Assembly: GCA_963922205.1 (NCBI GenBank)
Contig: CAWUHX010000145.1
Coordinates: 558,001 to 622,000 of the forward strand
DNA length: 64,000 bases
Source: Romanomermis culicivorax
Lineage: Eukaryota > Nematoda > Enoplea > Mermithida > Mermithidae
Direction: 5' to 3'
The position numbers were made by a program, and so were the translations under genes. Shown in pieces: positions 33,401 to 54,125 of the stretch (the first letter of the stretch is position 1; each line of letters starts with the position of its first letter). Below the pieces are notes generated by a model. The model worked only from the letters and a program-made list of their open reading frames with translations. It was not told the DNA's origin and ran no database searches.

Positions 33401-33737
33401 TCTCGCTCCGCTCCACTGCACTGTTTGTTTTTTTCCACGAACTTTTTTCCACAAATGTGGAAAGGGGTCAAATTTTTTTTCCACATGTGGAAAAAAAATT
33501 TTTTTCGTCTTAAAATCCTCGTTTTTTGGCTTAAAAATGCTCACAGACGCTTTATCGCACTGTTTTTGAGCTTTTTCAAGCCTTCCGGTGTTTTTAGAGA
33601 AGTTAATTCATTAAAATTGGAGAAAAAATTGAAATGTTCGACTAAGCCTAATCTACAAGCATTGTTGAACAAATTTTCTAGCAAACTATCCAAGAGCATA
33701 ATTGACTTGAATTACACAAGAAACCAATGGTCAAGTC

Positions 33738-35824
33738 CATGGGCGTACGGACACTGGGTGCAGTGGGTGCAATTGCACCCAGTAATCAAATATTGAAATT
33801 TTTTTAGATTCCTTTCAATTCAGATATTTCTGTCACTAAGTACTAACTAGTGCTCGATTAAAAATGTCAAAGCCATCCGCGGGCAATACTTCTATTACGA
33901 AATTCTTCAAGCCAAGGCAACAGAATTCAGCTGCTTCACAGTCCAATAATAAAGGAACTGCAACATCAACAACAGAAAGCACTTAAGAACCCACTGAAGA
34001 CTTGCTATCTGCTTATGACGAAATTAAAAATACAAAGAAGAGTTTAGAATTACGTATTGAATCAGATGTTGATTTTGAAAAGTTATATGGACAATGCAGA
34101 AGTAATGCTGACTTTGCCTTATCAATTAGCTTTTAGAGTAACTAAATATATTGATTAAATTTCAGAGCCAGATTGATTAGATCCTGGCGTTTTTGAAAAT
34201 ATTGCGTTTTATCATGATTTTTTGGGTGGTGCGACTTTTGAGATGTTCAGTGGTGAACTTAGACGATGGAAAGTTGAATGGTGCAAGTGCAACACCAATT
34301 TGAAACAAAGGCCTGAAAGTTTACCTGAAACACTAAAATTATTTGATGGACCTCTAAAAGTATACCACAAATTTTCATTAGCAGTAGTTTTGTATACATT
34401 CTGTGACCTGATTTTAATCTTTTTTAATGAATTTTATCGGACTCTTTTTGCCTTACTCAAAATTTTGTCAACTTATCCAGTCACTACTTCGACACCAGAA
34501 AGAACGTTTAGTATGCTGCAGAGCACCCCATGTGTGGGGTATGGGGGGGGGTATTACCCCCGTCTTAGATTCGGAAATTCATTTACAACCCCAAAAAACA
34601 GCTCACTATAGCAAAAAATTTTGGTAGACCACATCCTCTCCCCAGTAGATTATAGTAATTCGAGAAAAATTGTACAATGTGTGATTCTGAGGAATTACTC
34701 ACCGCTCTTTTTGACACATTTACTGAGCAAATCATAATGGGAAAGTATGCAACTTCTGTGCCATATAGCAATTTTCAGGAAAGGATATTAGCACATTAAT
34801 ATATACTACTTGTAGGCAATCATTATATATATAATTGAGAGATGAAATAATGACTTATGTATATGTGATTTATCAAAAAATCGCCCTCTTGGGAAGAAAA
34901 ACATTATGTTCTTAAAATTCTTCCTCTTCATGCTCTCCTTTCCTTTTCCCCACTTCTGCGTTGGGTCTTCTGTGCGCATATGGTTACCCAAGCTGTGGCA
35001 TACTTCCTGCTATGAGTTGAGACATGTGAGGTCTGTCGACGTGGATCAGGAGTGGTACTTGGTTTCAAACTCGTAGTTCATAGTCTAATGGGATTAATAA
35101 TACTAAAGCCACATTCAGCATCAGGACTTTCAATTGGAAGCACTGTTCCAAGCCTTAGCAGGGATGGAATAAGCCCATACTGCTGGTTCAAATAATGTTT
35201 CCAAAAGTATGTTGTGTCCGATTCTTGAAATGTGCAGGAATCAGTTGGCTTGACAATCTTCAAAGTGTGAATATTCTGTACATATAATTAGTGCATTGAA
35301 GTTGCACGATTGGGAGCCAGAAAAGGGAGATGAAATAGTAAATGTTTTTTGACCGTAAAAAACGTAAACTAGGTGCATTATTGATTTTTGTAAGTTGTAT
35401 GTGGTTAGAGCACTTCAACTCCCCCCTCCTGTGCAAAAAAGCTGGGAGCAAAAAAAAGGTCACGGCATATTTCAAGTACTACCCTTAAAATTTACGATTT
35501 TACCCCTGCCTAAATTTTCGACCTTGGGGACCTCTGGTATGCTGGCTAGGATATTCTGTGAAAAACGAAAGTCAATGACAACAAAGCGTGTTTCAGATCT
35601 TGCTGTTATTTCATACTACTCTAAAGAATCTGGAAATGTTGACATTTCTGATGTCCTCGAAATTTTTGCAGATGTGTCGCGTCGTATTAAGTTGAAATAA
35701 AACGTATTAAGTTACTTAACGTTTATGTGTGACAACAAAAGCATCATTTATAGCTGATTTTATAACAGTAATTTTTTAAATTTTGAATTGCACCCCATAT
35801 GAAAAAATCCTGCGTACGCCTATG
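33738..35824 (+). mobile_element. hAT transposon with perfect 8-bp duplication GTCAAGTC
   Basis: The ends are CATGGGCGTACGGACACTGG and, inverted, CATAGGCGTACGCAGGATTT, both followed by GGGTGCA. GTCAAGTC flanks both sides (33730-33737 and 35825-35832). The related uninterrupted repeat at 45449-46492 carries the empty target as a single GACTTGAC at 46178-46185 on the opposite strand. It carries a broken transposase gene (33864-35700) interrupted by about 1 kb that begins near 34519 with a C/G-rich run. Confidence 0.93.
33864..35700 (+). pseudogene. hAT transposase, broken
   Basis: It starts MSKPSAGNTSITKFFKPRQQ, a ZMYM/TTF-type hAT N-terminus, and hits a stop near 33985; the frame continues as EDLLSAYDEIKNTKKSLELR. 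At 34222-34520 lies a degraded region ending LLKILSTYPVTTSTPERTFS, the hAT dimerisation motif (normally LPVSTASAERxFS). The C-terminus resumes at about 35585 (KRVSDLAVISYYSKE, then DISDVLEIFADVSRRIKLK and a TAA at 35698). Stops, frame changes, a lost catalytic core and an insertion of about 1 kb make it non-functional. Confidence 0.8.
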
Positions 35825-36555
35825 GTCAAGTCCTCTATGATGACAAGTGAAAGCCCAAAAAAGATGGTACTTTCCGGCGCCAAGCGCCGGAAATTTTTTT
35901 GGGTATATTGACATTCTGGGATGCTGGAAAATCATTTTTCCGAACATTTATTTCAAGAATTAGATTCCAATTTAGTGTTCAAGAGTCGTAATTTCTAGAA
36001 TTTTACTTGAAAAATTTTAAAATCTGTAATTTATTTGTAAACTCTCATGAACTTGGTCGAAAATATATGAGTAAGAAGAGTATAAATTTCCGAAAGATAT
36101 TTCCAAGAAGCTTTTGAATTGATTTTACGTTAGCAAAGAAATAATCGCATCATAAATCATAGAGACTTGACGTGTATTGATCTTTCTCAAAAGGAAAAAA
36201 TGCGAATCTTCATTAAATATTATGATAAAATGTCGAAGATTACCAATTAAAACATGAGATACTACGTTTAAGATGATGAAAACTATTATAGATTAAGTGA
36301 TAAATGAAGGTAGACATGATAAAAGCCGCGCCTGAGCTACTTAATGAATAATGATGATTATTAAAGTTATAACCGGCGCGAAGCGCCGGAAAATTTAGAA
36401 ATTCGGACCTCCTAAAATGCACCAAAATGCATCTTTTCAATATGAAAAGCCCAAATTTTTCTTCCACATTTGTGGAAAGACCTCAAAAATTTTTTCCACA
36501 TTCCAGATTTTTTTTCCACATTATAGTGCAAATGTGGAAAAAAAACAGTGCGCTC

Positions 36556-37352
36556 CAGTGTTTTTTTTTTGTGCCAAAACATGGTTTTTGGCACAAAAAA
36601 ATTTGGAATGGCACAAAAAATTTTGGGCGTTTGTGCCAATTGGCACAAATTTTTTGACTAGTCGAATGCCGAATTTCTTTGATTTTTAGTCATTTTAGGG
36701 GCTGAAAACGCAAAATTTTTTCGGCGCTTCGCGCCGAATCAATTACTTAAGTGTAATATTAGTCATGGTGTCAGGAACCTGAAAGAATTGTATTCGAATA
36801 GTAGATTTGTATGATCGCAACAAACTTTGAGGTTGTCAATGATTGAAAAATGAATTAGTTAACTTCTACTCGAAATTTTTATTTTTGGTGTTTGATTCGA
36901 ACAGAAAAATTTACCTGGTTGGCACAATTTTTCTACCAAAAATTTACGCGACGTGACTTCCGTTCTAGTTTTTTCCAGGAAAAATTTTTATGGACATCCG
37001 TAATTTATTTACATCGGTGTTAAGAAGAAATCCGTAGCCGAAAATTAAAGAAAAATATAAAATGCCTGAAAAGTTTTAATCTGAATTCTCGCAGCATCTG
37101 ATTTCTTTCCGAATCGTATAAACTGGTTTCTTCATTAGTTTTTCTTATCGCCCTGACGCGCTTAAGATAGAATAGAGTTGGCACGATTTTTTATGCAAAT
37201 TAGTGCGGCAAAAGTAACCTTTAGTTATATTTTTGTCGAACTTTTGGCATAAAACTTTTTCTAGGCTGGAAAAAATTTTTTGTGCCATTGGCACAATGAT
37301 TTTTGCCCTTGGTGCCGATTGGCGCAAATGTCCATGCACAAAAAAAACGCTG
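36556..37352. mobile_element. B-body hAT-like MITE (word GTGCCAATTGGCAC), copy 1
   Basis: It begins CAGTGTTTTTTTTTTTGTGC and ends GCACAAAAAAAACGCTG. TTTGTGCCAATTGGCACAAA at 36630-36649 is a perfect 20-bp palindrome, with variants (GTGCCATTGGCAC, GTGCCGATTGGCGC) near the right end. The body has a TCGGCGCTTCGCGCCGA hairpin near 36720. It directly follows the A-body element, and TCTCGCTC occurs both at 33401-33408 and 37353-37360, flanking the composite. Further copies lie at 45263, 48020 and 51262. Non-coding. Confidence 0.75.
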
Positions 37353-37363
37353 TCTCGCTCGAT

Positions 37364-38688
37364 CAGGGTTGGCAAGGCTTTGGTTTTTTGGTTTTTGGTT
37401 TTTTTGGTTTTTTAAAAAAACCAAAAAATTGGAAAATCTCTGGTTTTTTGGTTTTTTTCCAAAATCATTGGGAAACTGTTTTTTCACATTAGTTGATCTT
37501 CTAGGCATGTATTGCTGTCTATCTAAATCAACAAAACAATTAATTTAGTTGAATTGACTTCACTACAAAGTAGAAAAAAGTCGTATTTTTATGATACATT
37601 TCGTACACAAAGATGTAATATAAATCAATCGATATCCTTTGTGCAATCTTGCAACCACACATTCAGTACATGAGTCAACTTTGCTATAATTTGCCCACAA
37701 AAAAGTAGACACTAAATCTTTCGTGGAGTGTACTCCGACCATACGGGGTGACATCCATTGATCTGATCCATATCATCTTCAAAATGTTATAAAATATGAT
37801 TGAGTTTAATATACTGAATTTATTGTTACGGTAAGCTTTTTAATTTTCTTAGCTCGAAATTTCAAAATATAAATGAGACAACAATAATAAAATTTTATAC
37901 AGATCAGTTAAGCATACTGTAGGTTAACAAAGAGAGGAGCTTTTGAGTGGTTCATTTTTATGGGACTTGACGTCGCTACTAAGTAGAAAAAATCATACAA
38001 AAATATGTATCTATCATGCAAGCGAGAATAGTATATAAATAAGACCCATTTGCTGTAGTTATAGCTCGCAGACAGATTTGAGAAGCAAAAATTTGGAAAC
38101 TTCTGAAATGTCTATGTGTGACCTTCAACTGCAGTTTGTAATATTAATAACATATGTAATATCAATTTAAAACCCTCTTATCGAAAACGGTATACCTAAA
38201 AATTGTCATTTCAACTTCTCTGTGCATATGTATGTATTATATGTGATGCATTGATACAATTCTGTAGTTGATTTCTTTTGAGTTTTGGTTGCGTACATTG
38301 TGTATTGTATATTTCTCTCTATTTGTAACTTTTCTTCTTTTCCTTGAATTTGCCCCTTACAAATCGCATGCTCTGTTCCATTTTTACTTTTCTTGTGTTC
38401 TTCACTCATGGTTCCTTTTTTATGTGCCCACTATTACTGTATTCCTATTGCTAAATAGGGATTTCCTATAGCATAAAATAATGACATTTCTGATAAGATT
38501 AATACTTCTAGCTGCCATTTTACGGCTCCCTAACTAATCTTAGATGATACAGAGAGCTTCCAGCAGTTTTTTACATAGTTATTTTGATGTACCAAACATT
38601 CTAAAGAATTGAACCACAAAAAAACCACTAAAAACCATTAAAAAACCAAAAAGTCGAAATTTCAAAAGTTTGGTTTTTGCCAACCCTG
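37364..38688. mobile_element. hAT element with CAGGGTTGGCAA ends and perfect duplication CGCTCGAT
   Basis: The left end is CAGGGTTGGCAAGGC and the inverted right end CAGGGTTGGCAAAAACC, a classic hAT terminus. CGCTCGAT stands on both sides (37356-37363 and 38689-38696). Subterminal DNA is runs of GGTTTTTTGG and its complement. The interior (about 37560-38560) has no transposase and is AT-rich. It is probably a non-autonomous relative of the element whose right end is at 48014. Confidence 0.9.
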
Positions 38689-38710
38689 CGCTCGATTGAT
38701 TCAGTAAAGG

Positions 38711-38929
38711 CATACCTGTACTTGGGGGGGGGAGACCCTCCCCAACTTGGCCAACCATGTACCCAACATCACCCAACCCCCCACCAGTTTGGAAAAAATT
38801 AAAAAAATTCGCAAAAAGTGCATGTTTTTTGGCCTTTTTTGGGAAAAATTTCGACTTTTTTCGACCCCCTCCCCCCAAATTTCGGATTTACCCCCCCCCC
38901 CCCAACTGGTCGTAGGTCTTACAGGTATG
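38711..38929. mobile_element. 219-bp hAT-type MITE, CATACCTGTA ends, G/C runs
   Basis: It starts CATACCTGTACTTGGGGGGG and ends GTCTTACAGGTATG. The flanking 8-mers AGTAAAGG (38703-38710) and AGTAAGGG (38930-38937) differ at one base. A second copy, opposite in orientation, sits at 57669-57869 inside a Harbinger transposase remnant; the two share CCAACTTGGCCAACC and the G-runs. Confidence 0.85.
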
Positions 38930-38937
38930 AGTAAGGG

Positions 38938-39446
38938 CGGTGTTGTAAGTTCGTCGCTCGATTAAAGGCCGATTATAATAATCCGCAAAATTTGTGGATT
39001 TTTTGAGTTTCGTTGTGACAAATTTTCTGGCTTAGGCTTAGACTTACTGTTAGGAAGCAGTAAGCGTAAACTACTCACATTTTTTCGACCAATGATTTAT
39101 GAAAGTTCTCGCTCTGCAATCCTTGTGATTACCATCGCCAATCATTTAGCTGAAATGAGGGAGTTAGCCTTAGAAAGCTAATCTTTTTTGATGGAAAAGC
39201 TGAAAAATGTCAACTTTGGACTAGCTATAAGTGTTTTTCTGATAATGATCTAATTTAGTCTAACGTAAAAAATTTTAATTTCTTCGGCACTTTGAGCCAT
39301 ATTACGTTTTATGTTTTAGGCAAAAGTTACCATTTTTCAACCGTTTTCCAGACTTTTGGACGCAAAAAATCAAATTTTTTCGTTGTAATTGTAATAACCC
39401 CTAAAATCTTCGAGCAATTGATGACCCCATGTATAAAAAGTACCCT
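38938..39446. other. Intergenic DNA, nothing recognised
   Basis: A single GGCTTAGGCTTAGACT word lies near 39030. Otherwise AT-rich and unassigned. Confidence 0.4.
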
Positions 39447-39454
39447 GTCCTGAC

Positions 39455-40241
39455 CACTGTTTTTTTCTACATTGCACTATAATGTGCAAAAAAATATGGA
39501 ATGTGTAAAATGTTTTTGAGGTCTTTCCACAAATGTGGAAGAAAAATTTGGGGTTTTAATATTGAAAATATGCATTTTGGTGCATTTTAGGAGGTCCAAA
39601 TCTCAAACTTTTCCGGCGCTTCGCGTCGGCTATAAGTTTCATAATCATTATTATTTATTAACGAGGTCAGGCGCGGCTTTTAGCATGTCTACATTCACTT
39701 ACCATTTAATCTTAGTTTTCATTATCTTAAACGTATTATTTCATGTTTAATTGGCAATCTTGAATATTAATCTTTATATTTAATGACGATATCCGCATTT
39801 TTTCCTTCATAGGTTTTTTGAGAAAGATCAACACGTCAACTTTCTAAACTTTTTTAAGCGTTTATTCCTTTCTTAACGTAAATTGAATTCAAAAGCTTCA
39901 TGCAAGTATTTTTGGAAAATTTCTAAGCTTCTGACTCATAACTTTTCGGCCAAATTTATGAAAGGTTACGAACAAATATGGTTTTAAAATTCTTTTAAAT
40001 GATATATTTCTAGAAATGACGATTTATGAATATAAAATTTAAATCTAATTTTTGAGATATATGATCAGAATGATTATCAGAATGCTTTAAAAAGCTCAAA
40101 AACACCTAAACAAAGCGTTTATGAGCATTTTTAAGCGAAAAAACGAGGATTTTAAGACGAAAAAATTTTTTTTCGACATGTGGAAAAAAATTTGACTTCT
40201 CTCTACATTTATGGAAAAAAGTTCCTGGAAAAAAATAAGTG
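39455..40241. mobile_element. A-body hAT-like MITE (word CCACAAATGTGG), 787 bp, with 8-bp duplication
   Basis: The ends are CACTGTTTTTTTCTAC and, inverted, CACTTATTTTTTTCCAGG. Flanking 8-mers GTCCTGAC (39447-39454) and GTCCTGCC (40242-40249) match at seven of eight positions. The internal order is that of 33417-36550 and 45449-46492: CCACAAATGTGG, GGTGCATTTTAGGAGGTCC, a GGCGCTTCGCGTCGG hairpin and TCAGGCGCGGCTTTTAGCAT. It lies about 400 bp upstream of the ferritin start codon. Confidence 0.85.
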
Positions 40242-40249
40242 GTCCTGCC

Positions 40250-40633
40250 TCGACTTCGGAGCTAGCTCAAAGGTATGGATCAAAGCCTCAAAATTTTAAG
40301 GCGAAAAGGGACTCGGCGAAAATGATGAAAAAATCTCGACTTTGTTTGCGAAGTGTAGCGAGAGCCGAAAAGATCTGTACGGAAAATAACAGTGGTTCAC
40401 ACATCGCAGCATTGTTTTAGTCCCAAATGGGTTGTTTTGAAGAAAATAATTTCGAGAAGCATATTTTTATAAAATTTTCATATGCTCCTTTGCTCTCAGT
40501 CGTATTAATTCTCTACAGCTGACCCTTCGATAATTTATTCGCTCAAGGCAAAACGTAAACAAACTAGCTTGGAATTTGTATTTTTTGGTCTCTGTTTTAT
40601 AGATATTCTGATTCGCTGCGAATTATTGCAACT
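40250..40633 (+). other. Upstream region of ferritin, probable 5' untranslated region
   Basis: An acceptor-like TCTCTGTTTTATAG ends near 40592, so at least the last 40 bp before the start codon are probably the end of a 5' untranslated exon. The upstream exon and promoter were not located. CAGTGG at about 40391 lacks the paired stem of an iron-responsive element. Confidence 0.4.
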
Positions 40634-42869
40634 ATGAATTCTTCATCGATAATTCGTCATAATTACCATCAAGATTGCGAAGCAGCAATCAATAAGCAAA
40701 TTAATTTGGAAATGTACGCCAGCTACGTTTACTTGTCCATGGTCCGTAAAGCCTTTTTTCATTACTATTAAAAAATTGCTCTAACCCACTGTTTTTAACA
40801 AACATGTAGGCTCATCACTTCGAACGTGACGACGTCTGTTTGCCCGGTTTCGCCAAATTTTTCTCTAAATCGAGCGACGAAGAACGTGAACACGCTCAAA
40901 AATTAATGGGTTTGCAAAATAAACGCGGCGGTCGTATCGTTTTGCAGAATATTCAGGTCAGTTTGGTGATTTTGGGTCTCGTTTTGACATCCGAATTTTC
41001 ACGCTGTCGTCATGTCTGACGTCTTAGCATAGTTTTGTGTTATGCCTATTTATTCTGGATTCTAAAATTTTACGTTGTTCTGGTCGAGGCTTTTTTCCGC
41101 ACAGTGTGGACTTTTTTCTGCCTGTGCGGAAAATTTCTACGTTTTCTGTACAGAACTGAAATTTTTTGAGCGTTTCTGCTGCTGGCACTCATAAAAAGGT
41201 GAGTTTTGATTCAATTTAGAAGCTCAAAATCACAAACTTTCCCGGCGCTTCCCTCCGGAAATGACAGTAATTTATAATATGCACTAAAAATTATGCTGAA
41301 GCACAGAAAAAAAAGGTTTGGCTTCATTTCTCAGTTATTCTTGATTGCTTCCATGAATTTTCTATGTCTCATCTCATATTAGAGCGAGTCAAAGTCGACG
41401 CTTCTTTCGATAATATCGTAAGAATAAGAATTTTCGCAATGAATATTAATTTGTTGATTTATAAAATCTAAACCGAGAATATAACAAATTATCTTTAAAA
41501 TACATTTTCTAACATTTCATCAGCTCCTGTGTTCGAAAATTTTCCGAAAAAGTTCAACATTTATGATTCCCGTGATTTGAAGTTCCTTTTTTAATTTATC
41601 AATCGGTTAGGATTTTGTTAGAAATTAAGATTCTTTATTGACCTTCTTAAATTCTTTCTCTCTCATGAAGTTAACTTTTTGAACACAAAGTTTTTCATTG
41701 GGAAACGATGACTACATGATTTTCGATTGAAAATATAAAGCTTGTATTTTAGAGATTAGGGTTGAAAAGACTCATTTTCCAACAGTTTAGAATATCACAA
41801 TCTAAAAATTGAATACATTAAAATCTGTAAATCTTCAGCTCTAATTACAGGAATGCCAGCAGCAATTATTTTTTTTGCTCGATCATTCTGAAATGATGTT
41901 GATTTATAAAAACGGACACTTTTGAACATTTTCGTGGTAATCTACAATTTTCGCTCGTTTCGCGCATGTTTCAAATGATTTCAATTGGAAACGGAAAAAA
42001 TTTTCGTGTATGAAAAAAATTTCCGCACGATGCGGATAATGGCATACGGAAAAAATCCTGGTTCCATTCGAATTCTTAAAAAACGCTTTTTCTGAGCTTT
42101 TTCGACAATGTCAGATTTTTTTCGTGTAAGAATGATGTTCATGATTTTCCATGGGCATGTCTTTCTCGGACTTTCGTTTTCAAACATTTTAGAAACCTGA
42201 ACGCGACGAATGGGGTAGTGGTTTGGAAGCAATGCAAGCAGCTTTAGCTTTGGAACGCAACGTGAACCAATCTTTGATCGATTTGCATAAATTGGCAGCC
42301 CAGCACGAAGATCCGCATGTAAATAAAGTTTTATGTAGAGTCATTTTAGTATCGATCATCAGGCTGAATTTCCATCACCAAATTCAACTAATTTTATTTC
42401 TACTTCTAATTTTGCATGTTTTCGGTTAATGTCACCGGGACGTTCTCATGTGAGTGATTCCCAAGTGAACGATTTCTAAGTGAGCGATTCCCAATTGAGC
42501 GATTCTCATGTGAGCGGCTCAATTGGGGATTCGCTCACTTGGTAACAGACCATGTCACCCATTCCGAACTCGAAGTTTCATTTTTTTAGGATTTAACAGA
42601 GCTAAAAATCGGCCAGAAGTTTCGTTCGACTATATAAATGAAATGCATTTTTTGATTATAAATCTGCCCAATCTGCTGTCTTCTGGTGGTTATATTTTGT
42701 CTTATACTATTCTGTTTTTTAGTTGTGCGACTTCTTGGAAGCTCATTTCTTGAACGAACAAGTCGACTCGATCAAGCAAATCGCATGTTACGTCACCAAT
42801 TTGAAACGCGCCGGACCCGGTTTGGGCGAATATATGTTCGACAAAGAAACCTTGCACGGCGATAAGTAG
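40634..42869 (+). CDS. Ferritin heavy-chain-like subunit, complete, four exons
   Basis: Exons 40634-40741, 40810-40956, 42193-42318 and 42723-42869 join in phase 0 to 175 residues plus TAG. The protein lacks a signal peptide, so it is the cytosolic type. Ferroxidase residues of H chains are all present: E26 and Y33 ([11 protein letters not shown]), E61 and H64 (DEEREHA), the E of LERNVNQSL and the Q of LNEQVDSI. It ends [18 protein letters not shown], typical of invertebrate soma ferritins. The product should oxidise Fe(II) and store iron in a 24-subunit shell. Donors are GTCCGT (weak), GTCAGT and GTAAAT, plus one intron in the 5' untranslated region. Intron 2 holds a CCGCAC-word element and intron 3 an inverted phrase repeat. 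No iron-responsive element was recognised near the coding start. Confidence 0.95.
41083..42063. mobile_element. hAT-like MITE with CCGCAC/GTGCGG word in ferritin intron 2
   Basis: The left end carries CTTTTTTCCGCACAGTGTGG and CTGTGCGGAAAATTT; the right end carries TTTCCGCACGATGCGGA and ACGGAAAAAATCCTGG. The inner text AGAAGCTCAAAATCACAAAC followed by CCCGGCGCTTCCCTCCGG matches the A body (AGGTCCAAATCTCAAACTTT, CCGGCGCTTCGCG). The layout is that of the CCACATGTGG elements with another word. No target duplication was resolved, so the ends are approximate. Confidence 0.6.
42435..42556. repeat. Inverted phrase repeat, AGTGAGCGATTCCCAA, in ferritin intron 3
   Basis: Four direct variants of AAGTGAGCGATTCCCAATTG are followed by their reverse complement GCTCAATTGGGGATTCGCTC, making a small foldback. 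It is a compact example of the phrase style seen in the elements at 5153, 17205 and 25916. Confidence 0.6.
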
Positions 42870-45262: not shown

Positions 45263-45448
45263 CCAGTGTTTTTTTTGGGCCGAAACATGGTTTTTGGCAC
45301 AAAAAAATTTTGAGCGTTTGTGCCAATGGGCACAAATTTTTTGACTGGTCTAAGGCTAAATTTCCTTGATTTTTAGTCATTTTAAGGGCTGAAAACGCAA
45401 AATTTTCTCGGAGCTTCGCGCCGATTCAATGGGTTTAATATTGACTAT
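45263..45448. mobile_element. B-body hAT-like MITE, left part (word GTGCCAATGGGCAC)
   Basis: CAGTGTTTTTTTTGGGCCG, GTTTTTGGCACAAAAAAATT, TTTGTGCCAATGGGCACAAA and the TCGGAGCTTCGCGCCGA hairpin follow the order of 36556-37352. The right part is missing; an A-body element begins at 45449. Confidence 0.65.
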
Positions 45449-46492
45449 TCACTGTTTTTTTTTCCACGAACTTTTTTCCACAAATGTGGAAAGAAGTCAA
45501 TTTTTTTTCCGCATGTGGAAAAAAAATTTTTCCACATTTGCACTATAATGTGGAAAAAAAATCTGGAATGTGGAAAAAATTTTTGAGGTCTTTCCACAAA
45601 TGTGGAAGAAAAATTTGGGGTTTTAGGAGGTCCAAATCTCAAAATTTTCCAATCATCATTATTCATTAAGTAGCTCAGGTGCGGCTTTTATCATGTCTAC
45701 CTTCATTTATCACTTAATTTATAATAGTTTTCATCATCTTAAACGTAGTATCTCATGTTTTAATTGGTCATCTTCAACATTTTATCATAATATTTAATGA
45801 AGATTCGCATTTTTTCCTTTTGAGAAAGATCAATACGTCAAGTCTCTATGCTTTACGATGCGATTATTTCTTTGCTAACGTAAAATCAATTCAAAAGCTT
45901 CATGGAAATATCTTTCGGAAATTTATACTCTTCTTACTCATATATTTTCGACCAAGTTCATGAGAGTTTACAAATAAATTACAGATTTTAAAATTTTTCA
46001 AGTAAAATTCTAGAGATTACGACTCTTGAACACAAAATTGGAATCTATTTCTTGAAATAAATGTTCGGAAAATTGATTTTCCAGCATCCCAGAATGTCAA
46101 TATACCCAAAAAAATTTCCGGCGCTTGGCGCCGGAAAGATTCCCATCTTTTTTGGGCTTTCACTTGTCATCATAGAGGACTTGACCATCGATTTCTCATG
46201 CAATTCGAAGTCAATTATGCTCTTGGATAGTTTGTTAGAAAATTTGTTCCACAATGCTTGTTGGTTAGGCTTTAAAAGCGAACTTTAAATTTTTTCTTCG
46301 ATTTTAATGAATTAACTTCTCTAAAAACACCGGAAGGCAGTAAAAAGCTCAAAAACAGTGCGATAAAGCGTCTGTGAGTATTTTTTAGCCAAAAACGAAA
46401 ATTTTAAGACGAAAAAAAATTTTTTCCACATGTGGAAAAAATTTGACCCCTTTCCACATTTGTGGAAAAAAGTTCGAGGAAAAAAACAGCGC
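45449..46492. mobile_element. A-body hAT-like MITE (word CCACATGTGG), full-length, inverted relative to 33417-36550
   Basis: The left end is CACTGTTTTTTTTTCCACGA and the inverted right end CGCTGTTTTTTTCCTCGAAC; both go on with ACTTTTTTCCACAAATGTGG for an inverted repeat of about 85 bp. The body runs through TTAGGAGGTCC, CAGGTGCGGCTTTTATCATG, the GGCGCTTGGCGCC hairpin near 46120 and AGAGGACTTGACCATCG, the empty target of the hAT transposon at 33738. No flanking duplication is clear. Non-coding. Confidence 0.8.
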
Positions 46493-46975
46493 GACAGAGT
46501 TAAGATGAGATCACACAACAAACAAATCAAATGCTATCGTAAATTTTCAATTCAGGAGACTTCTTAACTTTATTCGATTCGGTTCATATGACTATTCTGT
46601 TGAGTTGACTTATTCTAATCAAAAAGCTAAGGATTATTATTTAGTAAATTTAACTTATGTTTGAATTTTCTTTTGGGTGAAGTTGATTTGATTCTGTAGT
46701 TTATCTGAACATTTGGCAGATTTTACTGACCATGAGTCACTGAGCAGTGCTGGTGAGCAATACACAGCATTACTTGTGACTGCTGAAGTCTGCTGACAGC
46801 CATCAGCATTTGGTGAGATGACTTGAGCAGCCCTAAAATTTTGAGGGAGACAGCAGACCCACTGGAGAAAGAGGCAGCTGACGGATTTTTAGGTCCAAAA
46901 ATGGGTTGAAAATAGACCACCAACCACCAAGTATTCTGGTTGAAGGGCTGTAAGCAGTATGAATGTTGAAGAAAG
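46493..46975. other. Intergenic DNA, nothing firmly recognised
   Basis: At 46725-46880 words such as GAGCAGTGCTGGTGAGCAAT and CTGCTGACAGCCATCAGCAT recur imperfectly, but neither a boundary nor a family could be set. Confidence 0.35.
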
Positions 46976-47410
46976 AGAAAGAAAGAAAGAAATTTATTAA
47001 ATGCGAATAAATACAAGAGTAAATACGACTAATACAGAAAAGCTCATGGACGTGACAAAAGCACGTGCGAATTGAGCTTTAAAAAATGACTCAATTTAGA
47101 CCGAAAACAGGGCATATTATTCGAACGAAAGATATCATTGGGTAGGGAATTCCAAACATCAATATTTCGCGAGCAAAAATCATGTTTTAAAGCGCTAGAG
47201 TTATATTTCGATTTATACAATTTAAATAAGTTAGACGCGCGATAATTGAATGGACTCAAAGTGAAAAATAAGTCGGGTGGAATAACTTTAAATTTCAAAA
47301 TTAAGAATATGTAAGATAGGTCGATACACGTCGAAAAGTAAGATAGGTCGATACAGGTCGAAGAAAGAAACATCAAACTTTTTTTCAGCCTGTAAAAACA
47401 CAATTTACAG
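46976..47410 (-). mobile_element. LINE 3' end, 5'-truncated, with TTTC tail
   Basis: On the minus strand a reverse-transcriptase C-terminal frame (47403-47044) is followed by a short 3' untranslated region ending in GCATTTAATAAATTTC and a (TTTC)n tail at 46976-46992. A second copy of the same 3' end lies at 48226-48384, so the tail is the true 3' end of the family. Confidence 0.75.
47044..47403 (-). pseudogene. Non-LTR retrotransposon ORF2, C-terminal fragment
   Basis: The frame reads FFTLSPFNYRASNLFKLYKS, HDFCSRNIDVWNSLPNDIFR and PCFRSKLSHFLKL. This is the end of ORF2 in CR1/L2-like LINEs, where a LF(K)xxxx...FFSxRxxxxWNSLPxxV...FKxxL stretch follows the reverse transcriptase. STCIDLSY occurs twice in a row from a 27-bp tandem duplication. 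The reverse transcriptase itself is missing. The exact clade cannot be set. Confidence 0.7.
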
Positions 47411-47457
47411 GCAACTCAATGAATAAATGATCTCGGCAAGTGAAAGTGATGAAAAAA

Positions 47458-48014
47458 ATATGTTTTGTTACAAAATGCTGGAGAGCGGCCAAAAATCTGC
47501 TATGCAATATTGTTTGACGGAAGGCAAAACGTGGCTCTCGTACAAAAAATCGCCTTGAAAGTATGTTTTTTGAGACTATTAATGGCGAGCAAGCGAAATT
47601 TATTTTGTCATGTTATAATCACGTGTTTTCCATTTTGGTGTCCACTGCGTCATCAGAGCGTTATTTTTCAACATTTGGCTTTGTTCACAGCAAATTGCAT
47701 AATCGATTGCCATCTGCATCAGTCGAAAAGCTAGTCTTCATAAAATTCAATGCCAAAAATTTTTTTGGTGGTGCATTAATATATGATTTTATTTGTTATG
47801 ATAAGGAATATGTATTTTTGCTTAAAAAAAGGAAAAATGATATGAGAATGTTTTGCATTATGAAGAATAAAACTTAAGATATGTTTATTTGCTTTTCTTT
47901 CATATACTTAACTCAGATCCACTATTCTGAGATAAAAAAACTCTGATTAAACCCAGAAAAACCCATAAAACCCCCAAATTCGAAATTTTAAAAATGGATT
48001 TTTTCCCAACCCTG
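47458..48014 (+). mobile_element. hAT element, right part, CAGGGTTGG-type end
   Basis: A transposase C-terminus (47563-47877) is followed by GGTTTTT-type subterminal DNA in reverse orientation and the end TTTTTTCCCAACCCTG, matching the termini of 37364-38688. The left end was not found; the LINE fragment lies directly upstream. Confidence 0.7.
47563..47877 (+). pseudogene. hAT transposase, dimerisation domain fragment
   Basis: The frame reads SILVSTASSERYFSTFGFVH, SKLHNRLPSASVEKLVFIKF. The ASSERxFSxFGxIHSKxRNRL...VEKLVFI pattern is the C-terminal dimerisation domain of hAT transposases of the DUF659/ZMYM-like group. Upstream coding is in another frame (47465-47560) or absent, so the copy is dead. 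Confidence 0.8.
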
Positions 48015-48492
48015 AAGGAGGCCGAAAAGTAAAGGAAAACTTCGTGACAAAAAGTCTATAAAAATATCTGAATTTTCGCAGCATTTAATTTCTTTTCGGA
48101 TCGTAGAAACCGTTTTTTAGATCAGTTTTTCTTATCTCGCTGACGTGGTTAGAGAAAATAGAGCAGGCACAATTTTTATGCAAATGAATGCGGTGAAAGT
48201 ATCTTTAGTTAGTTTTTATCAAACTTGAAAGAAAGACAGAAAAGAAATTTATTAAATGCAAAGAAATGCAAGAAATATGAATAATACAGAAAAGCTCATG
48301 GACATGACAAAAGCACGTGCGAATTGAGCTTTAAAAAATGACTCAATTTAGATCAAAAACAGAGCATATTGTTATAACTTTTGGCACAAAACAGTTTTAT
48401 GGTTTTCAGTACGTTTTTAGAGTGAAAAAATTTTTTGCGCCATTGGCACAAATTTTTTTGACCTTTTGTGCCAATTGGCACAAATGTCCGTG
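48015..48492. mobile_element. B-body hAT-like MITE, right part (word GTGCCAATTGGCAC), split by a LINE
   Basis: Text from CTGAATTTTCGCAGCATTTA to the end GTGCACAAAAAAACGCTG follows the right half of 36556-37352. A LINE 3' end (48226-48384) lies between TTTTTATCAAACTT and AACTTTTGGCACAAAAC, where copy 1 reads continuously. Confidence 0.75.
48226..48384 (-). mobile_element. LINE 3' end, second copy
   Basis: AAAGCTCATGGACATGACAA and AAAAGCACGTGCGAATTGAG match 47041-47070 nearly base for base. The minus-strand tail is the same GCATTTAATAAATTTC plus TTTC-like repeats. AACTT on both sides is a possible short target duplication. Confidence 0.75.
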
Positions 48493-48530
48493 CACAAAAA
48501 AACGCTGTTCTGTACCAGCCAACCACAGTT

Positions 48531-48840
48531 TTTTTCCTCAATCGACGCTTTTTGACGAACTTTTTTTGAAATTGACGAAAATTTTTTTGATGGTTTCCAG
48601 TTTTTTTCCTCAATCGATGCTTTTTGAGGAACTGTTTTTGAAATTGAAGAAAATTTTTTTGTTGGTTTCCTGTCTGGAGATGCATTTTACGTGTTATAAA
48701 ACCGAAAATTGTCGAAATTTTCCGGCATCGAGCCAAATTTTAATCAAATTTATTTTAATTAATACCTTTTCTTCTTATTTCAATGCGCGGCTAGAAAATT
48801 TCATTCCAGCCAATGCTTATAGCTTTTAATTATCAATATA
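48531..48840. mobile_element. CCTCA-word hAT-like element with a tandem duplication
   Basis: CAGTTTTTTTCCTCAATCGA followed by CTTTTTGAcGAACT...GAAATTGACGAAAATTTTTTT occurs twice in tandem, about 65 bp each (48531-48600, 48598-48665). The same opening is seen in the hAT element at 10247. The right end was not found. Confidence 0.5.
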
Positions 48841-49219
48841 TTATAAAGAAATGTTTGATCCTGTGTCGTTTTTTTGAAAATTTGACGAAAAGCAAGATTT
48901 TTCTCGGTTTATTTTCCCAAAGTCTTTTTGCGGTCTTTAAAAAGATTTTGACATTTGCGTGATTAAAACTTTTCGAGTCCAAGTGGGTATTCCTTCTGGT
49001 TGAAGAATCAAAATTCTTGGTTGCGTCCCTAGTTTTTGAATTGTAGTCTGCCCGACTGAAAATTCACTGAAAAATTAAACCTTCTGTCTAGGAAATAAAA
49101 GCTGTAAAATTTTTCTCACCAGGCGCCGAACAGATCACTCATACCAATCTTTCCATTTTCCCTTCAAAACTCTTGAAAAAATGGAAATTGAAAAATATTG
49201 AAAATGAAAATATTGAAAA
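48841..49219. other. Intergenic DNA, nothing recognised
   Basis: No gene or repeat structure supported. Confidence 0.35.
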
Positions 49220-49302
49220 ATCTATTGGAAATGGAAATTGAAGACATCATTCTGCGATTTTAAAACTTCTTTTCATGAATATCTGTTGGAGAGATTTATT
49301 AG
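49220..49302. repeat. A-body fragment shared with 50860-50955
   Basis: GAAGACATCATTCT, TGCGATTTTA(A/G)AACTTCT and ATATCTGTTGGAGAGATTTA are shared by both loci; at 50955 the text runs on into the A body (TTTTCCAGCATTTTAGAATA), so this is a fragment of that repeat. Confidence 0.55.
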
Positions 49303-49475
49303 GGTAGCCCTAGGGACCCTCAAAAGTATGGGGGTCTCTAGGGCTACCCTATGGCTAGCCATAGGATTGGAAAATTCTGGGGGGAGGGCGGTGACCCAAT
49401 GGCTAGCCATATGGTCGACGATTTCTGGGGGGGGGTTCCCATAGCACTTCCCCCCAATTACATGTATGGCTCAGG
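49303..49475. mobile_element. J-family hAT-type MITE (word CCTATGGCTAGCCATAGG), right part
   Basis: It contains the perfect 18-bp palindrome CCTATGGCTAGCCATAGG at 49348-49365, AATGGCTAGCCATATGGTCG, G-runs and the terminus CCCCCCAATTACATGTATG. The left half is missing compared with 62096-62496. Confidence 0.7.
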
Positions 49476-50045
49476 CGCGGCTTTTGCATGTCTACCTTCA
49501 CTTTACATTCAATCTTTTATCATTTTCATCATCTTAGACGTATTATTTCATGTTTAATCGGCAATCTTGAATAATTTATATTTTTATATTTAATGAAGAT
49601 CCGCATTTTTTTCTCCACAGATTTTTTGAGAGAGGTCATCACGTCAACTTTCTAAACTCTTTTGAACGTTTGTTCTTTTTTTAACTTAATTGACTTCAAA
49701 AGCTTCGTGAAAGTGTTTTTGGAAAATTTCTACGCTTCTGACTCGTAGCTTTTCGGCCAAATTTAAGGTTACGATCAAATTGATGGTTTTAAAATTTTTT
49801 GAATGATAAATTTCTAGAAATTACGATTTATGAACACAAAATTTAAGTCTAATTTTTCAGATAATATGTTCAGAATGATTATCAGAATGCTTAAAAAACT
49901 CAAAAATACTCAAATGAATTGTTTATGAGCATTTTCAAGCGAAAAAAACGAGGATTTTAAGACGAAAAAATTTTTTTTCCATATGTGGAAAAAATTTGAC
50001 CTCTTTCCACATTTGTGGAAAAAAGTTCGTGGAAAAAACAGTTGT
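49476..50045. mobile_element. A-body hAT-like MITE (word CCACATTTGTGG), partial
   Basis: From TCAGGCGCGGCTTTTGCATG through AGGATTTTAAGACGAAAAAA to CCATATGTGGAAAAAATTTG, CCACATTTGTGG and the end GTGGAAAAAACAG, in the order of 39455-40241. The other end is replaced by the J element. Confidence 0.7.
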
Positions 50046-50075
50046 ACCAGCGTTTTTTTTGCGCACATACCCACC

Positions 50076-51060
50076 GTTTTTTCTCAAATGGGGTCTTTTG
50101 AGGAAGAAAATTTCGAAATGAGGAAAAGAATTGGGTATGGTTTTCATTGTGGAAAAAATTTTGGGGGATTCAGAACCGAAAAGATGCGTTTTGGTGGACT
50201 TGAAAGGGTCAAAATATCAAAATTTTCAGGCGCTTCGCGCTGGTCATGGGTATAATGCATACATGTAATTGGGGGGAAGTGCTATGGGAACCCCCCCAGA
50301 AATTGTCGACCATATGGCTAGCCATTGGGCGACCCCCCCAGGATTTCAATCCTATGGCTAGTCATATGGTAGCCCTAGGGACCCCCATAGTTTTAATCGG
50401 AAAAATACTGAAAAAAGTCATTTTTTTCCATGAAAAATGACAATTTTTGAACAAAAAATGGTCAAAAACGTCGATTTTCTCGGCGCTTCGCGCCATAAGT
50501 ACATATTTTATCATTTTTAGACAAAAATTACTACTTTTTAAACCGTTTTTTCGGACATTTTTCGTGGAAAAAATTGAATTTTTTTTCCTTCAGGGACCCC
50601 TCCCCCCAAAATTTTGGGAATTACTGACCCCCGGCCCCAAAAAAGTGCTCCAACCCCCCCCCCAGACCTCGGAGCTCCGTTACATGTATGGTATAATGGT
50701 AACTATTTTCTAACAGGCGCGGCCGTTAGCATATATACTTCGACTTACTGATTAATGCTCAACAGTTTCTATCAATCAAGTTAGCTCCTTCCATTTTCTA
50801 ATCGTTGACAGTCAATTATGTTGCCGAAAATAGAGATTTCTCTCAACAAACGCTTGCAACCTAAACTTTTGCGTTTATTGAAGATGGGAATCGAAGACAT
50901 CATTCTAGGCTGCGATTTTAGAACTTCTGTCACGAATATCTGTTGGAGAGATTTATTTTCCAGCATTTTAGAATATAAAAACCCGAAAATTTTTCCGGCG
51001 CTTTATCTTTTATATTTGGTATATTTGGTCGCGGTAACGGTTCCTGAAGCTACTGGGTGA
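50076..51060. mobile_element. A-body repeat with CTCAAA/TTTGAGG word, interrupted by a J element
   Basis: CCGTTTTTTCTCAAATGGGG and CTTTTGAGGAAG at 50078-50110 replace the CCACATGTGG word, while the following text (AAAGATGCGTTTTGGTGGAC, AAAATTTTCAGGCGCTTCGC) is A body. After the J element (50258-50690) the body resumes with AACAGGCGCGGCCGTTAGCA and reaches CCGGCGCTTTATC near 50996. An 80-codon open frame at 50818-51060 belongs to this repeat. Confidence 0.6.
50258..50690. mobile_element. J-family hAT-type MITE, complete, perfect duplication GTATAATG
   Basis: It begins CATACATGTAATTGGGGGGA and ends GAGCTCCGTTACATGTATG. GTATAATG flanks both sides (50250-50257 and 50691-50698). Inside are CCATATGGCTAGCCATTGGG, CCTATGGCTAGTCATATGG and a GGCGCTTCGCGCC hairpin. 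It is the reverse orientation of 62096-62496. Confidence 0.92.
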
Positions 51061-51261
51061 GCACGAGACCACGGTCTTTTGAAACTTTCTGTTTGATTGC
51101 ATGTAATAGTACTGGCATATTCATAATCGGCATCACAAATTTTCCCATAACATAGTCACAAATATGCGAATTCCGCAAAAAAATTTTAGTCGGAAATATG
51201 CAAATTTGGAAAAATTTTGGAAAAAAATTTCGTACCCCCTAAACTCCGTAAGTGCCCAATG

Positions 51262-52060
51262 TAACACAACGTTTTTTGTGCACGGACATTTGTGCCAATT
51301 GGCACAAGAGGCCAGAAAAATTTGTGCCAATGGTACCAAAAAAAATTTTCCTCTAGAAACATACTGAAAACTGCGGAAATATTTTAGGCCAAAAGTTTGA
51401 CAAAAATATACCTCATTAAAGTTCCGTTTAACGCATTCCTTTTTCATAAAAATTGTGCCCAATCTATTTTTCTGCTTGTCAGTGAGATAAGAAAAAACTG
51501 TGCAAGAAAATAGTTCACGGCGACTAAAAAAAATGGAATGTTGAGAAAATTTAAATAACTGTAGAATTGTTCTGGAAGTTCAAATTGATTCAATTTTCGA
51601 CTGCGAATAAGTATCTATATAATGTGAAGACTAGAGAAAATAAAGTCGGAAATTGAGTAAGTTTTCGCTCGAAAGATTGTAGCAACGATATCGATTTTTC
51701 TATGTAAATCAGCCAAACACAAAAAGTAAGAATTTCAGTTTTAAATCCGAATCTGAATGAACAGAGAATATTCAGAATTTCTTTTCATTCATCAGTCATT
51801 GACAGCTTATAAAGTTTGCTGCAACGATACTAATACACTGTTCGAAGTGGAATCGTTCGCGTTCCGGTCAAATATACAAATAGGAAATTATATTGATTCG
51901 CTTGGCGCAAAGCGCCGAAAAAATTATGCATTTTCAGCCCCTGAAACGCCTAAAATCAAGGAAATTTGATGTTTAACCATCCAAGAATTTTGCATAAACG
52001 CTCAACATTTTTTGTGCCATTCCACATTTTTTGTGCCAAAAACCATGTTTTTGAATGAAA
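51262..52060. mobile_element. B-body hAT-like MITE (word GTGCCAATTGGCAC), inverted copy
   Basis: It opens AACGTTTTTTGTGCACGGAC, TTTGTGCCAATTGGCACAAG, and runs in reverse order of 36556-37352 to the GGCGCAAAGCGCC hairpin near 51905 and TTTTTGTGCCAAAAACCATG near 52023. The right terminus is replaced by TTGGCGAATGC-type palindromes. Confidence 0.7.
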
Positions 52061-52061
52061 A

Positions 52062-52145
52062 AATGTTGGCGAATGCAAATTGGCAAATTTGGCATTCGCC
52101 AATTTTTTGGCAAATGGCAGGCAAATGAAAATTTTTTGGGCGAAC
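52062..52145. repeat. Palindromic words TTGGCGAATGC / GCATTCGCCAA
   Basis: TTGGCGAATGC and GCATTCGCCAA form 11-bp arms around AAATTGGCAAATTTG, followed by AATTTTTTGGCAAATGGCAG. It looks like the subterminal end of yet another word family fused to the B element. Confidence 0.5.
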
Positions 52146-52149
52146 GAAA

Positions 52150-53205
52150 TTGAGGTAGTCATTTGTACATGTACAAACGTCTCTTCCCCGTTTAGGGAAG
52201 AAAATTTTGGGGATAAGGTACAGAAAATATGCATTTTGGTGGATTTTAGAAGTTCATAATCTCAAATTTTCTGGCGCTTCGCGCCGGTTTTAACTTTAAT
52301 AATCATTATTATGCATTACCTAGCTCAAACGCGGCTTTCAGATTGTCTTCCTTCACCTATCATGTAATGTACAATAGTTTTCATCACTTCAAACGTGTAT
52401 TATCTCATGTTTTAAGTGGTACTGTTTCAAGTGTCTTCAATATTTTATCATGTTTAAGTGGTCTTCAATATTTTATCTTGATATTTAATGGAGATTCACA
52501 GTTTTTCAGTGGAACATTTCTTGAGAAATATCGATACGTCAAGTCTGTAAACTTATGAAGCGATTATTCCTTTCTCAATGTAAAATCAATTCGGAGGCTT
52601 CATGGAAGTAGTTTTCAGAAATTTCTACTCTTCTAGTCATATCTTTTCAACCTCATATCTTTTCAGCCAAGTTAATGAGAGTTAACGAATAAATTACTGC
52701 TTTAAAAATTTTTCAAATAATGAAATTCTAAAAATTACGACTTTTGAACACTAAATTCGGATCTAATTCTTGAAATGAATGTTTGGAAAATTGATTTTCT
52801 AGCATCGCCGAATGTCAATACACAAAAAAATTTTCTGGCGCTTCGCGCCGGAAGGATTAAGATCTTTTTTGGGCTTTCATTTGTCATCATGGAGGACTTA
52901 ACCATCGGTTTATCATATCATGCAAATTCATCATGCTACTGAATAGTTTTCTAGACAAATTGTTCCACAATGCTTGCAAATTAGACTTGAAAATTTCAAT
53001 TTTTTGCTCAATTATAATGAGTTTTTTGTCATGAATAAAATTTGAAAATTACACCGATTTGGTTATTAGTCTTTGGCCATGACATAGAGGAACACAGGTA
53101 ACTTATTTATACCTATTTTTGCTACATATGTACAAATTGTACAAATGAAATATTGGCTGTCGTTTGTACATGTGCAAATGGGTCATGTACAAAAAAAAGC
53201 CTGGT
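52150..53205. mobile_element. A-body hAT-like element with GTACATGTAC word
   Basis: TTTGTACATGTACAAA (52162-52177) is a perfect palindrome, mirrored near 53162-53190 by TTTGTACATGTGCAAA and GTCATGTACAAAAAAAAG. Between them is A body: GCATTTTGGTGGATTTTAGA, the TTCTGGCGCTTCGCGCCGG hairpin, TAGCTCAAACGCGGCTTTCA and AAAATTTTCTGGCGCTTCGC near 52827. Same body, different word. Confidence 0.65.
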
Positions 53206-53382
53206 TGTCAGACTGGCATTTTCGATGCCAGATCTGGCACTGTTTGTAATGGTCTGGCATTTAACCGGCATTGTTCGAATCTGGCATTAAATGTGGTATA
53301 ATGTTCTGATTTTTGGCATAATTTCCTGATTTTTGACATAATTGTGGCATTATTTGAAAAGAAGTTTCTACAGGCTATAAGT
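53206..53382. repeat. TGGCAT/ATGCCA word cluster
   Basis: CTGGCATTTTCGATGCCAG is palindromic; GATCTGGCAC, GGTCTGGCATTTAACCGGCA and CTGGCATTAAATG repeat the word. It probably is the end of another word family; limits are unclear. Confidence 0.4.
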
Positions 53383-53875
53383 CACTGTTTTTACCCTGTG
53401 CCTTTTCCCCATATGGGGAAGGGGTCAAAAATTTGTTCCCCATTTTCACCTAGACGTTTTTTCGCTTAAAAATACTTATAGACGCTATATTTCAGTGTTT
53501 TTGATCTTTTTCAAGCCTGGTGTTTTTAGAACCGTTAATTCATTAAAATTGAGGACAAATTGAAATTTTCGAGTTTGAAGTCTAGTTTACGGGCATTGTG
53601 GAACAAATTTTACAGAAAACTATCCAAGAGTATAATAACTTTGCATTAGATAATAAATTGACGGTTAACTTCTCTATGATGACAAGTGAGATTTTAAAAC
53701 AGATGTTTTTGACAATTTTTTCAGCTATTGACATTCTAGGGCGCTGGAAAATCAATTTTCGGAACATATTTCAATAATTTAATTCAAATTTTCTGTTCAA
53801 AATTCGTAACTCATTTGTAAATTCTCGCGAACTTGACCGAAAAGAATGTAACTCAATTATGATTAATTTTATCAC
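53383..53875. mobile_element. A-body hAT-like MITE with CCCCATATGGGG word
   Basis: It starts CACTGTTTTTACCCTGTGCC and carries the palindrome TTCCCCATATGGGGAA at 53405-53420 where A elements have CCACATGTGG. The next text (GTGTTTTTAGAACCGTTAAT, CTATCCAAGAGTATAATAAC, CTCTATGATGACAAGTGAGA) is the same body as 33540-35860. The right end is replaced by another element. Confidence 0.7.
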
Positions 53876-53879
53876 CTGC

Positions 53880-54125
53880 ACATATACATGCACATAGGGG
53901 GTAGGTGGTAAACCTCCGGCCACCCCCCCCCCTGGCCCAAAAAAAATCGGCAAAACACACCCCTGACATTTTTCCAAGAAAGGTTTTTTGATTATTTTTG
54001 TGCATATTTTGTATGAAAAACAGGCTTTCAGATGTTTTTTCCATTTTTTGGCTCACCCACCTCCCTACCCTTTGAAAAAAGAGTCCATGGACCCTCCCCC
54101 TGGAAAATTCTTGCCGTGCATGTCT
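53880..54125. mobile_element. Probable hAT-type MITE with C/G runs, ACATGCAC ends
   Basis: It opens near ATACATGCACATAGGGGGTA and closes near CTTGCCGTGCATGTCTGCAG, with C-runs inside. The ends resemble the CATACATGCAC type at 28900. No clear duplication was found. It ends about 170 bp before the Ku70 start codon. Confidence 0.5.

Follow-up and report, generated by a model that had tools for sequence, protein, structure and literature searches.

The window, i.e. the whole stretch of 64,000 nucleotides analyzed here, comes from Romanomermis culicivorax, a mermithid nematode that parasitizes and kills mosquito larvae. It contains a ferritin gene (exons between approximately 40630 and 42870; the protein is 99% identical over its whole length to a R. 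culicivorax UniRef entry) and a set of short repeats, whose ends share one constant frame while a short subterminal sequence, here called the word, differs from family to family. These elements are non-autonomous hAT-type miniature inverted-repeat transposable elements (MITEs). Comparison of the window copies with their relatives in the genome indicates that most words changed in place and in concert, and that two families probably acquired their present structure by exchange of modules. A first-pass annotation of the window had described one repeat body with interchangeable palindromic words and had assumed that new families arise when a body acquires ends bearing another word; the word pattern proved to be largely right, whereas the proposed route of word change holds only in part.

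Elements in the window and in the genome

The genome searched comprises 359,112,060 bases in 595 contigs; for the published v2 assembly of R. culicivorax, built from long reads, a size of 359.1 Mb and a count of 595 scaffolds are stated (PMC10879605). The families were named A and Ap (word CCAC/GTGG), F (CCCC/GGGG), D (CCTC/GAGG), C (CCGCAC/GTGCGG), B (GTGCC/GGCAC), E (GTAC) and G (AGCC/GGCT). Six word families (CCAC, CCCC, CCTC, CCGC, GTGCC and GTAC) were sampled genome-wide, and the seventh word, AGCC, was found in a single element inside locus L064. Searches with the window copies as queries identified the elements as members of genome-wide families and not as single oddities; the first-look candidates numbered 5222 for A, 6414 for Ap, 6781 for E, 3405 for F, 1686 for D, 1346 for C and 3970 for B, counts that include relatives from other families. 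The best 40 copies were scored per query. The loci read were 30 for A and 30 for E (each including the window copy), 12 for F, 7 for D, 6 for C and 10 for B, and the Ap sample consisted of 3 fetched loci and two window copies.

Self-BLAST links the stretches 33419-36550, 39455-40241, 45450-46490, approximately 49466-50043, approximately 52110-53203 and 53384-53809 with identities of about 70-93%; the words at their ends are CCAC/GTGG in A and Ap, GTAC in E and CCCC/GGGG in F (Table 1). The shared internal text claimed by the first-pass annotation was thereby confirmed for the A, Ap, E and F copies, but not for the D element, listed there from 50076, which strongly shares the left module, whereas its body matches weakly and its part 50257-50690 is a foreign repeat that matches other repeats at 55069-55433 and 62096-62497 in self-BLAST. 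The sequence CTCAAA that had been read as the word of this element stems from a decayed window copy and has to be replaced by the family word CCTC/GAGG. Likewise, the GTAC element begins near 52110 instead of 52150, with its left terminus decayed in the window, and it carries a relic CCCC-type site inside its new left end. CCGCAC/GTGCGG was correctly recognized as the word of the ferritin-intron element.

Several elements are interrupted. The stretch 33419-36550 is a 1-kb family A element into which a hAT remnant of a different kind is nested (approximately 33737-35822), with a trace of the hAT dimerisation domain under Pfam's cut-off in 34177-34608. The second B element is broken up by the A copy at 45450-46490 and by other repeats, and within it lies a remnant of the hAT C-terminal dimerisation domain (PF05699, E 4e-9; 47518-47874) with AAACCC-type repeats downstream. 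The element previously delimited as 45449-46492 has at its start an extra right-end copy stacked outside its left end, an arrangement seen in this one window copy.

Table 1. Positions of the hAT-type elements and end modules in the window
Feature	Position	Strand	Remarks
Family A element, CCAC/GTGG, terminal inverted repeat (TIR) CACTG	33419..36550	-	Right end at low coordinate
Family B element, GTGCC/GGCAC, TIR CAGTG...CGCTG	36556..37352	+	40 copies scored of 3970 candidates
Family Ap element, CCAC	39455..40241	+	8-bp duplication GTCCTGAC/GTCCTGCC
Family C element, CCGCAC/GTGCGG, ferritin intron	41090..42060	+	Decayed copy; TIR CAGGG in better copies
Second family B element	45264..48508	+	Duplication TTCCGTAC/TTCTGTAC
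Extra right-end module stacked outside left end of A copy	45450..45531	-	89% to 46413-46486 inverted; 93% to 33419-33503
Family A element, CCAC	45527..46490	+	
Family Ap element, right part, CCAC	49466..50043	+	Absent from the first-pass annotation
Family D element, family word CCTC/GAGG, TIR CACCG	50072..51060	+	Left module 50072-50252
Third family B element, GTGCC	51272..52063	-	
Family E element, GTAC; outermost left word GCC/GGC	52110..53203	+	Left terminus decayed
Family F element, CCCC/GGGG, right end and part of body	53384..53850	-	

The assignment to the hAT type, already proposed before, is based on target duplications of 8 bp, which were found with at most one mismatch in 35 of 47 flank pairs (47 of 82 end pairs entered the test, the others having malformed termini or one flank repeated), while a 6-bp duplication was found once and duplications of 7, 9 or 10 bp never; shuffled pairing of the flanks gave a mean of 0.12 and a maximum of 2. 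Divided by family, the duplications occurred in 14/17 A, 13/16 E, 3/3 D, 1/1 C, 4/8 B and 0/2 F pairs, and at three further F loci (L070, L071 and L072) 8-bp repeats were read by eye. The duplications show a moderate preference for T at position 2 (22/35) and A at position 7 (19/35), which fits nTnnnnAn, the target preference of Ac-branch hAT elements. Short hAT TIRs begin with C-A-x-x-G, and the termini found here have this form: CACTG in A, Ap and F, CACCG in D, CAGTG/CAGCG in B, CAGGG in C, and CAGTG with CAGGC or CAGGG in E, where some right ends read CAGGC; CACTG deviates from the usual A/G at position 3. A T-run follows each of them. With lengths of 0.6-1.3 kb, one composite of 2.06 kb excepted, the elements are short, present in high copy number and non-coding as judged from the list of open reading frames alone, as is characteristic of MITEs.

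One frame and register with several words

The frame reads C-A-S-N-G, T-run, word, spacer, word, close to the constant frame that had been noticed in the window. Each end holds four or five copies of the half-word in fixed register, mostly adjoining a T- or A-run, and several half-words per end are paired into palindromes. Counted from where the T-run ends, the half-words of the right end stand at +0, +14/+15, +21-23 and +45-48. With a tolerance of one mismatch per half-word, this register is common to A, F, D, C, B, E and G; the consensus deviates in B (+0), E (+15), G (+0) and D (+15, +21, +45). The half-words at right +0 and +14, which have the same orientation, show the same or a one-off word in the seven families. 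At the left end they stand at 0, 18-19, 38-39, 62 and 69-71 in A, D and B; the second site is missing in the three-copy F consensus (0, 35, 57, 65), and C differs (0, 9, 29, 52).

Genome-wide pattern searches support this frame. The arm pattern TTTT-N6-AT-N4-AAAGGGGTCAAA gave 1038 matches and its reversed control 0, and in 97 of the 100 matches listed the two arms have matching middle bases (67 A/T, i.e. the CCAC type, and 30 C/G, i.e. the CCCC type), 69 of these 100 being perfect 4+4 palindromes. A second pattern, covering the two direct repeats of the left end (+18, +38), gave 1477 matches compared to 0 in the control; among the 100 matches listed the repeats agree in 97 by eye (31 GTGG/GTGG and 66 GAGG/GAGG), and 3 are mixed. 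A pattern with two full CCACATGTGG words had 0 matches in the genome. The broad frame pattern used for listing new words was swamped by AT satellites (1333 matches vs 1155 in the control), and its 100 matches listed included one clear new word, GCC/GGC at C1:807489. Of the 452 half-site cells counted in the sample, 349 contain the word of their own family, 14 that of another family and 89 a decayed one or neither, as counted with a lenient window of about 4 bases on either side and for E at the right end only.

Related sequences outside these families were also seen. At 3540-3700 of locus L010 another GTAC-word element, with the register 0/14/20/46 and a different spacer text by eye, is inserted directly after a hAT coding end. 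A second hAT scaffold (CAGGGTTGGCAAAAACC or similar), present in the window at 37377-38690 and approximately 47900-48020 and also in the loci L078, L113 and L115, seems by eye to bear AAACCA, AAACCC or AAACCT depending on the copy, words with one-base differences. A tandem duplicate of a T-run/CCTCAATCGA repeat at 48526-48673 of the window perhaps represents one more word family. In addition, a long tandem array that is open in several frames lies at 24828-25871, between exons of one gene which we take to resemble a 5'-nucleotidase gene.

Homology of end modules and bodies

The left module was defined as the stretch from the terminus to a GGCGC hairpin (CCGGCGCTTCGCGCCGG), and profile hidden Markov models (HMMs) were built from the A, Ap and F modules and run on 2 D, 2 E, 4 C and 5 B loci. 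The left-module HMM matched D (9e-33), E (1e-25, inner part only), C (6e-22) and B (2e-11; the B locus L094 reached 3e-4 only), whereas the best of 11 shuffled sequences reached 0.096. The right-module HMM gave weaker matches to D (9e-8), C (5e-6) and B (4e-4). The body HMM matched E with 1e-166 and D and C with approximately 4e-8 over short parts; none of the 5 B loci run gave a match. Thus, the separate B body of the first-pass annotation is confirmed by the absence of a match to the A body, yet the left module of B is homologous to the others. On this sequence comparison, left modules are homologous in all six sampled families, in the GTAC family in the inner part only. The module HMMs and the alignment indicate that the spacer bases between the words are related although the words differ. 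Across A, F, D, C, B and the single G copy, ends that are otherwise alike carry different words at equivalent positions, and the identity between A and F is only.58 in the word columns compared to.74-.76 in the remaining end columns. The related ends, the common register and the agreement of arms and direct repeats together indicate that most words have been changed in place and in concert.

The hairpin GGCGC-NNN-GCGCC recurs in the described families, often at the junction of end module and body; its sites in the window are 35876-35888, 36375-36387, 36723-36735, 46120-46132, 50229-50240, 50482-50494 (in another repeat), 51904-51916, 52273-52285 and 52837-52849.

Exchange of modules in the families A and E

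Bodies and ends of family A tell different histories. The module analysis used 15 of the 30 A loci, the excluded ones being mostly near-copies in one common flank or having an irregular end, and 8 of the 12 F loci, the others lacking one end. In a midpoint-rooted tree of 61 bodies (at most 14 A rows), Ap stands apart and A is placed among F copies, so that bodies of one clade are joined to several words on one scaffold, as had been proposed; E forms one clade together with two unassigned copies. With the word columns removed from the ends, the median identity between A and Ap is.943 for the left end,.917 for the right end and.795 for the body, whereas that between A and the near F copies (L069, L070, L071 and L072) is.748,.774 and.839, respectively. 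The ends tree, in which 6 F and 4 Ap rows had sufficient end sequence, splits F from A and Ap with a support of 100/100. Approximately unbiased (AU) tests on the body data rejected a clade of A and Ap, with a p-AU of 0.0082 that fell to 0.0046 when the long row F_L064 was omitted. On the ends data, a grouping of A with F_L072 alone (p 4e-5) and one with both F_L072 and F_L070 (p 1.6e-4) were rejected. The latter, sharper type of test was used because holding A and F together was uninformative (p 0.52), A and Ap ends being intermixed. Hence, the disagreement of body and end trees, which the first-pass annotation had named as support for its proposal, was found for family A. By eye, the similarity of A switches on the left near the hairpin and on the right within roughly the last 150 bp before the right module. 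From these comparisons, family A is best read as a mosaic of Ap-type ends and an F-type body. Since both ends agree and two end swaps would need more events, a single replacement of the body between matching ends appears to be the simplest event for A.

Family E has a different structure. Its match to the left-module HMM starts 52-61 bp in, its inner site lies near 80 bp, and its inner left module is more similar to F (.81) than to A (.73), medians that include one wrongly cut row (L048). The inner left site and the body are F-like, while the outer left end and approximately 180 bp of the right end are new. E looks like the sole family whose ends were acquired from outside.

Discussion

We consider it rather probable that the ends of these elements serve as address labels of non-autonomous hAT elements, and that the families diversified by switching of the words in concert combined with mixing of modules. 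The paired sites consist of T-run, word and A-run, the sequence arrangement expected for putative Hermes-like BED-finger sites. Half-words arranged in this way may be the sites to which a partner transposase binds with its BED zinc finger; the A/T-run would then provide the constant component of affinity and shape and the 4-6 bp core the family-specific one. If the core specificity of the transposase shifts, only copies with matching sites would stay mobile, and a whole family would then seem to switch its word together, whereas the register would be preserved by the geometry of the transposase multimer. Modules might be mixed when the gap that excision leaves between matching ends is filled with an interior copied from a member of another family. 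Such ectopic gap repair could have given rise to family A, with Ap-type ends and a CCCC-type body, and the interior replacement would also explain why both A ends agree. In family E, foreign ends may have been stacked outside the old ones. The mixed sites of D look like an incomplete switch.

A number of observations weigh against this interpretation. A partner transposase was not found: the genome holds hAT domain matches (the best 150 of 1837 candidates were scored), but none of the 20 fetched hAT 3' flanks carries these ends as its own, and the hAT fragments inside the fetched loci yielded none either. The agreement counts were taken over copies with common descent and demonstrate family purity rather than independent switches, and the sampled copies are the top-scoring fraction of thousands. 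Concert is incomplete in D, where right +15 reads CCAC in 2/3 copies and the inner left arm GTGG in 1/3; decay is heavy at the F sites (own word in 34, decayed in 19, another word in 9); and the right +0 site of B is without the full GTGCC in 9/9. The right end of E was not matched by the right-module HMM in the 2 E loci run, and E shares only the register there. Within families the word columns are no better conserved than the two sets of other end columns (A.975 vs.978 and.976; F.772 vs.860 and.803; Ap.777 vs.913 and.900). As inserted MITE copies are expected to decay neutrally, this does not speak against selection at transposition, but gives it no support. As for family A, its firm body neighbours are the F copies L069, L071 and L072 (98/98), such that the A-F affinity rests on three copies with the placement of L070 less sure; more distant F bodies are not nearer to A than Ap is, and the clades tested were named after the first body tree, which makes the p-values not fully independent.

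In several loci (L096-L112), hAT transposase genes are followed by other words in dense arrangement (GGATCC, GGATATCC, GGGTACCC, GGTTAACC and TTCGTCGACGAA), which in several cases precede a terminus like GCATCCCTA, as read by eye.

A more specific version of word switching, offered as a tentative idea and rather doubtful, would be a recognition code, in which the half-words of four families, of the type CC-N-C (N = A, C, T or G) and on one scaffold and register, are read by transposases whose BED fingers differ in one base-reading residue. If true, ready-made, mutually exclusive hAT systems would coexist in one genome, and families would split when one contact changes.

The original assumption that families arise when a body acquires complete ends bearing another word is unlikely as the general route. 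It fits E, in which a new left end of roughly 50-80 bp lies beyond a relic F-like site and the right end is unmatched over approximately 180 bp, it could be related to the one window copy with a right end stacked on its left end, and the conflict between ends and body in A would be expected from it. However, HMM and alignment show similar ends in A, Ap, F, D, C and B despite their different words, which argues for words changed inside ends, and for A the agreement of both ends makes one interior replacement the shorter path. Acquisition of ends is therefore retained for E and not as the main route for A, F, D, C, B and the single G copy. The opposite case, which the first-pass annotation had named as speaking against its own proposal, namely that words differ only by mutation within one continuous family, comes close to what was found, although here eight to ten half-sites changed in concert. 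Somewhat less likely still than acquired ends is that plain drift in such a continuous family was homogenised within each element by short-range template switching without any selection for recognition. The one-base differences among the CCNC words, the mixed sites in D and the finding that word columns within A, Ap and F are no better conserved than neighbouring ones are in line with it; moreover, a stretch bearing a word near the left end of locus L118 is locally duplicated in inverted orientation, as expected from template switching. Unselected homogenisation is, however, not expected to preserve the register and the matching of both ends, and the lower A-F identity in the word columns indicates that the words change faster between families than their surroundings.

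The words might alternatively act as DNA or RNA hairpins, with the matched arm changes being compensatory and keeping a stem. The palindromes flanked by T- and A-runs and the high agreement of the arms among the matches listed would suit this explanation, which we nevertheless regard as improbable, because the equally well agreeing direct repeats at left +18/+38 cannot form a mutual stem, so that stem maintenance alone is insufficient. The same-orientation half-words at right +0/+14 point in the same direction, and the upkeep of stems does not predict a single word per family over separate stems. Finally, unrelated hAT families with look-alike AT-rich ends might be assumed from the lack of a body match between B and A and of a right-end match between E and A; this is highly improbable and was rejected by the E-values of the left-module HMM, whose matches in D, E (inner part only), C and B contradict unrelated ends as far as the left module is concerned. 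Collectively, in-place and concerted switching of words together with module mixing appears to account best for these elements.

The ingredients of this scheme, i.e. family-specific subterminal motifs and replaced MITE interiors, are already known. According to the Hermes paper, BED domains bind cooperatively to two subterminal repeats that form a quasi-palindrome, and this binding depends on AT-rich DNA adjoining the core motif; the Tol2 TIR is noted there to be followed by a perfect palindrome (PMC10368747). The T-run and variable core found here fit sites of the Hermes/Herves type. The left end of Hermes is alike in having such a quasi-palindrome near its TIR with adjacent AT-rich DNA for high-affinity binding; however, the description concerns one element with its motif, whereas seven words in one register within similar ends occur here in a single genome. 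The transposase of Herves needs a repeated subterminal motif that is present at both ends, and binding was weaker for the single-base variants tested; Tag1 motifs are cited in the same paper (PMC3143072). Herves, Tag1 and Ac thus resemble our elements in that hAT transposases bind their own short subterminal motifs, but the differences, as presented in that source, lie between separate elements of different species and not within one scaffold. In the P-element MITEs of Anopheles gambiae the family ends are kept and the interiors differ, and ectopic gap repair was put forward for them (PMC1562414); these belong to the P superfamily, and the parts of the paper drawn on here mention neither a word series nor a conflict between two trees. 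The coral CMITEs share a conserved interior, less conserved TIRs and a possible mobilisation by several transposases, but are piggyBac-like and, in the sections used, described without a subterminal word series (PMC2872659). In the titles and abstracts searched, with most subscription journals outside their scope, no description of one MITE scaffold with an exchanged series of subterminal words was found.

A joint change of specificity in a transposase and its many sites is hard to observe, because families usually differ everywhere. In R. culicivorax, the frame is constant and the word variable; the sites listed or counted number well over a thousand, some of them are only partly switched, and two families are mosaics. 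Hence, these elements provide a testable series for transposase-DNA recognition and for the origin of new non-autonomous families, and make it possible to study how transposons alter the recognition sites of their enzymes.

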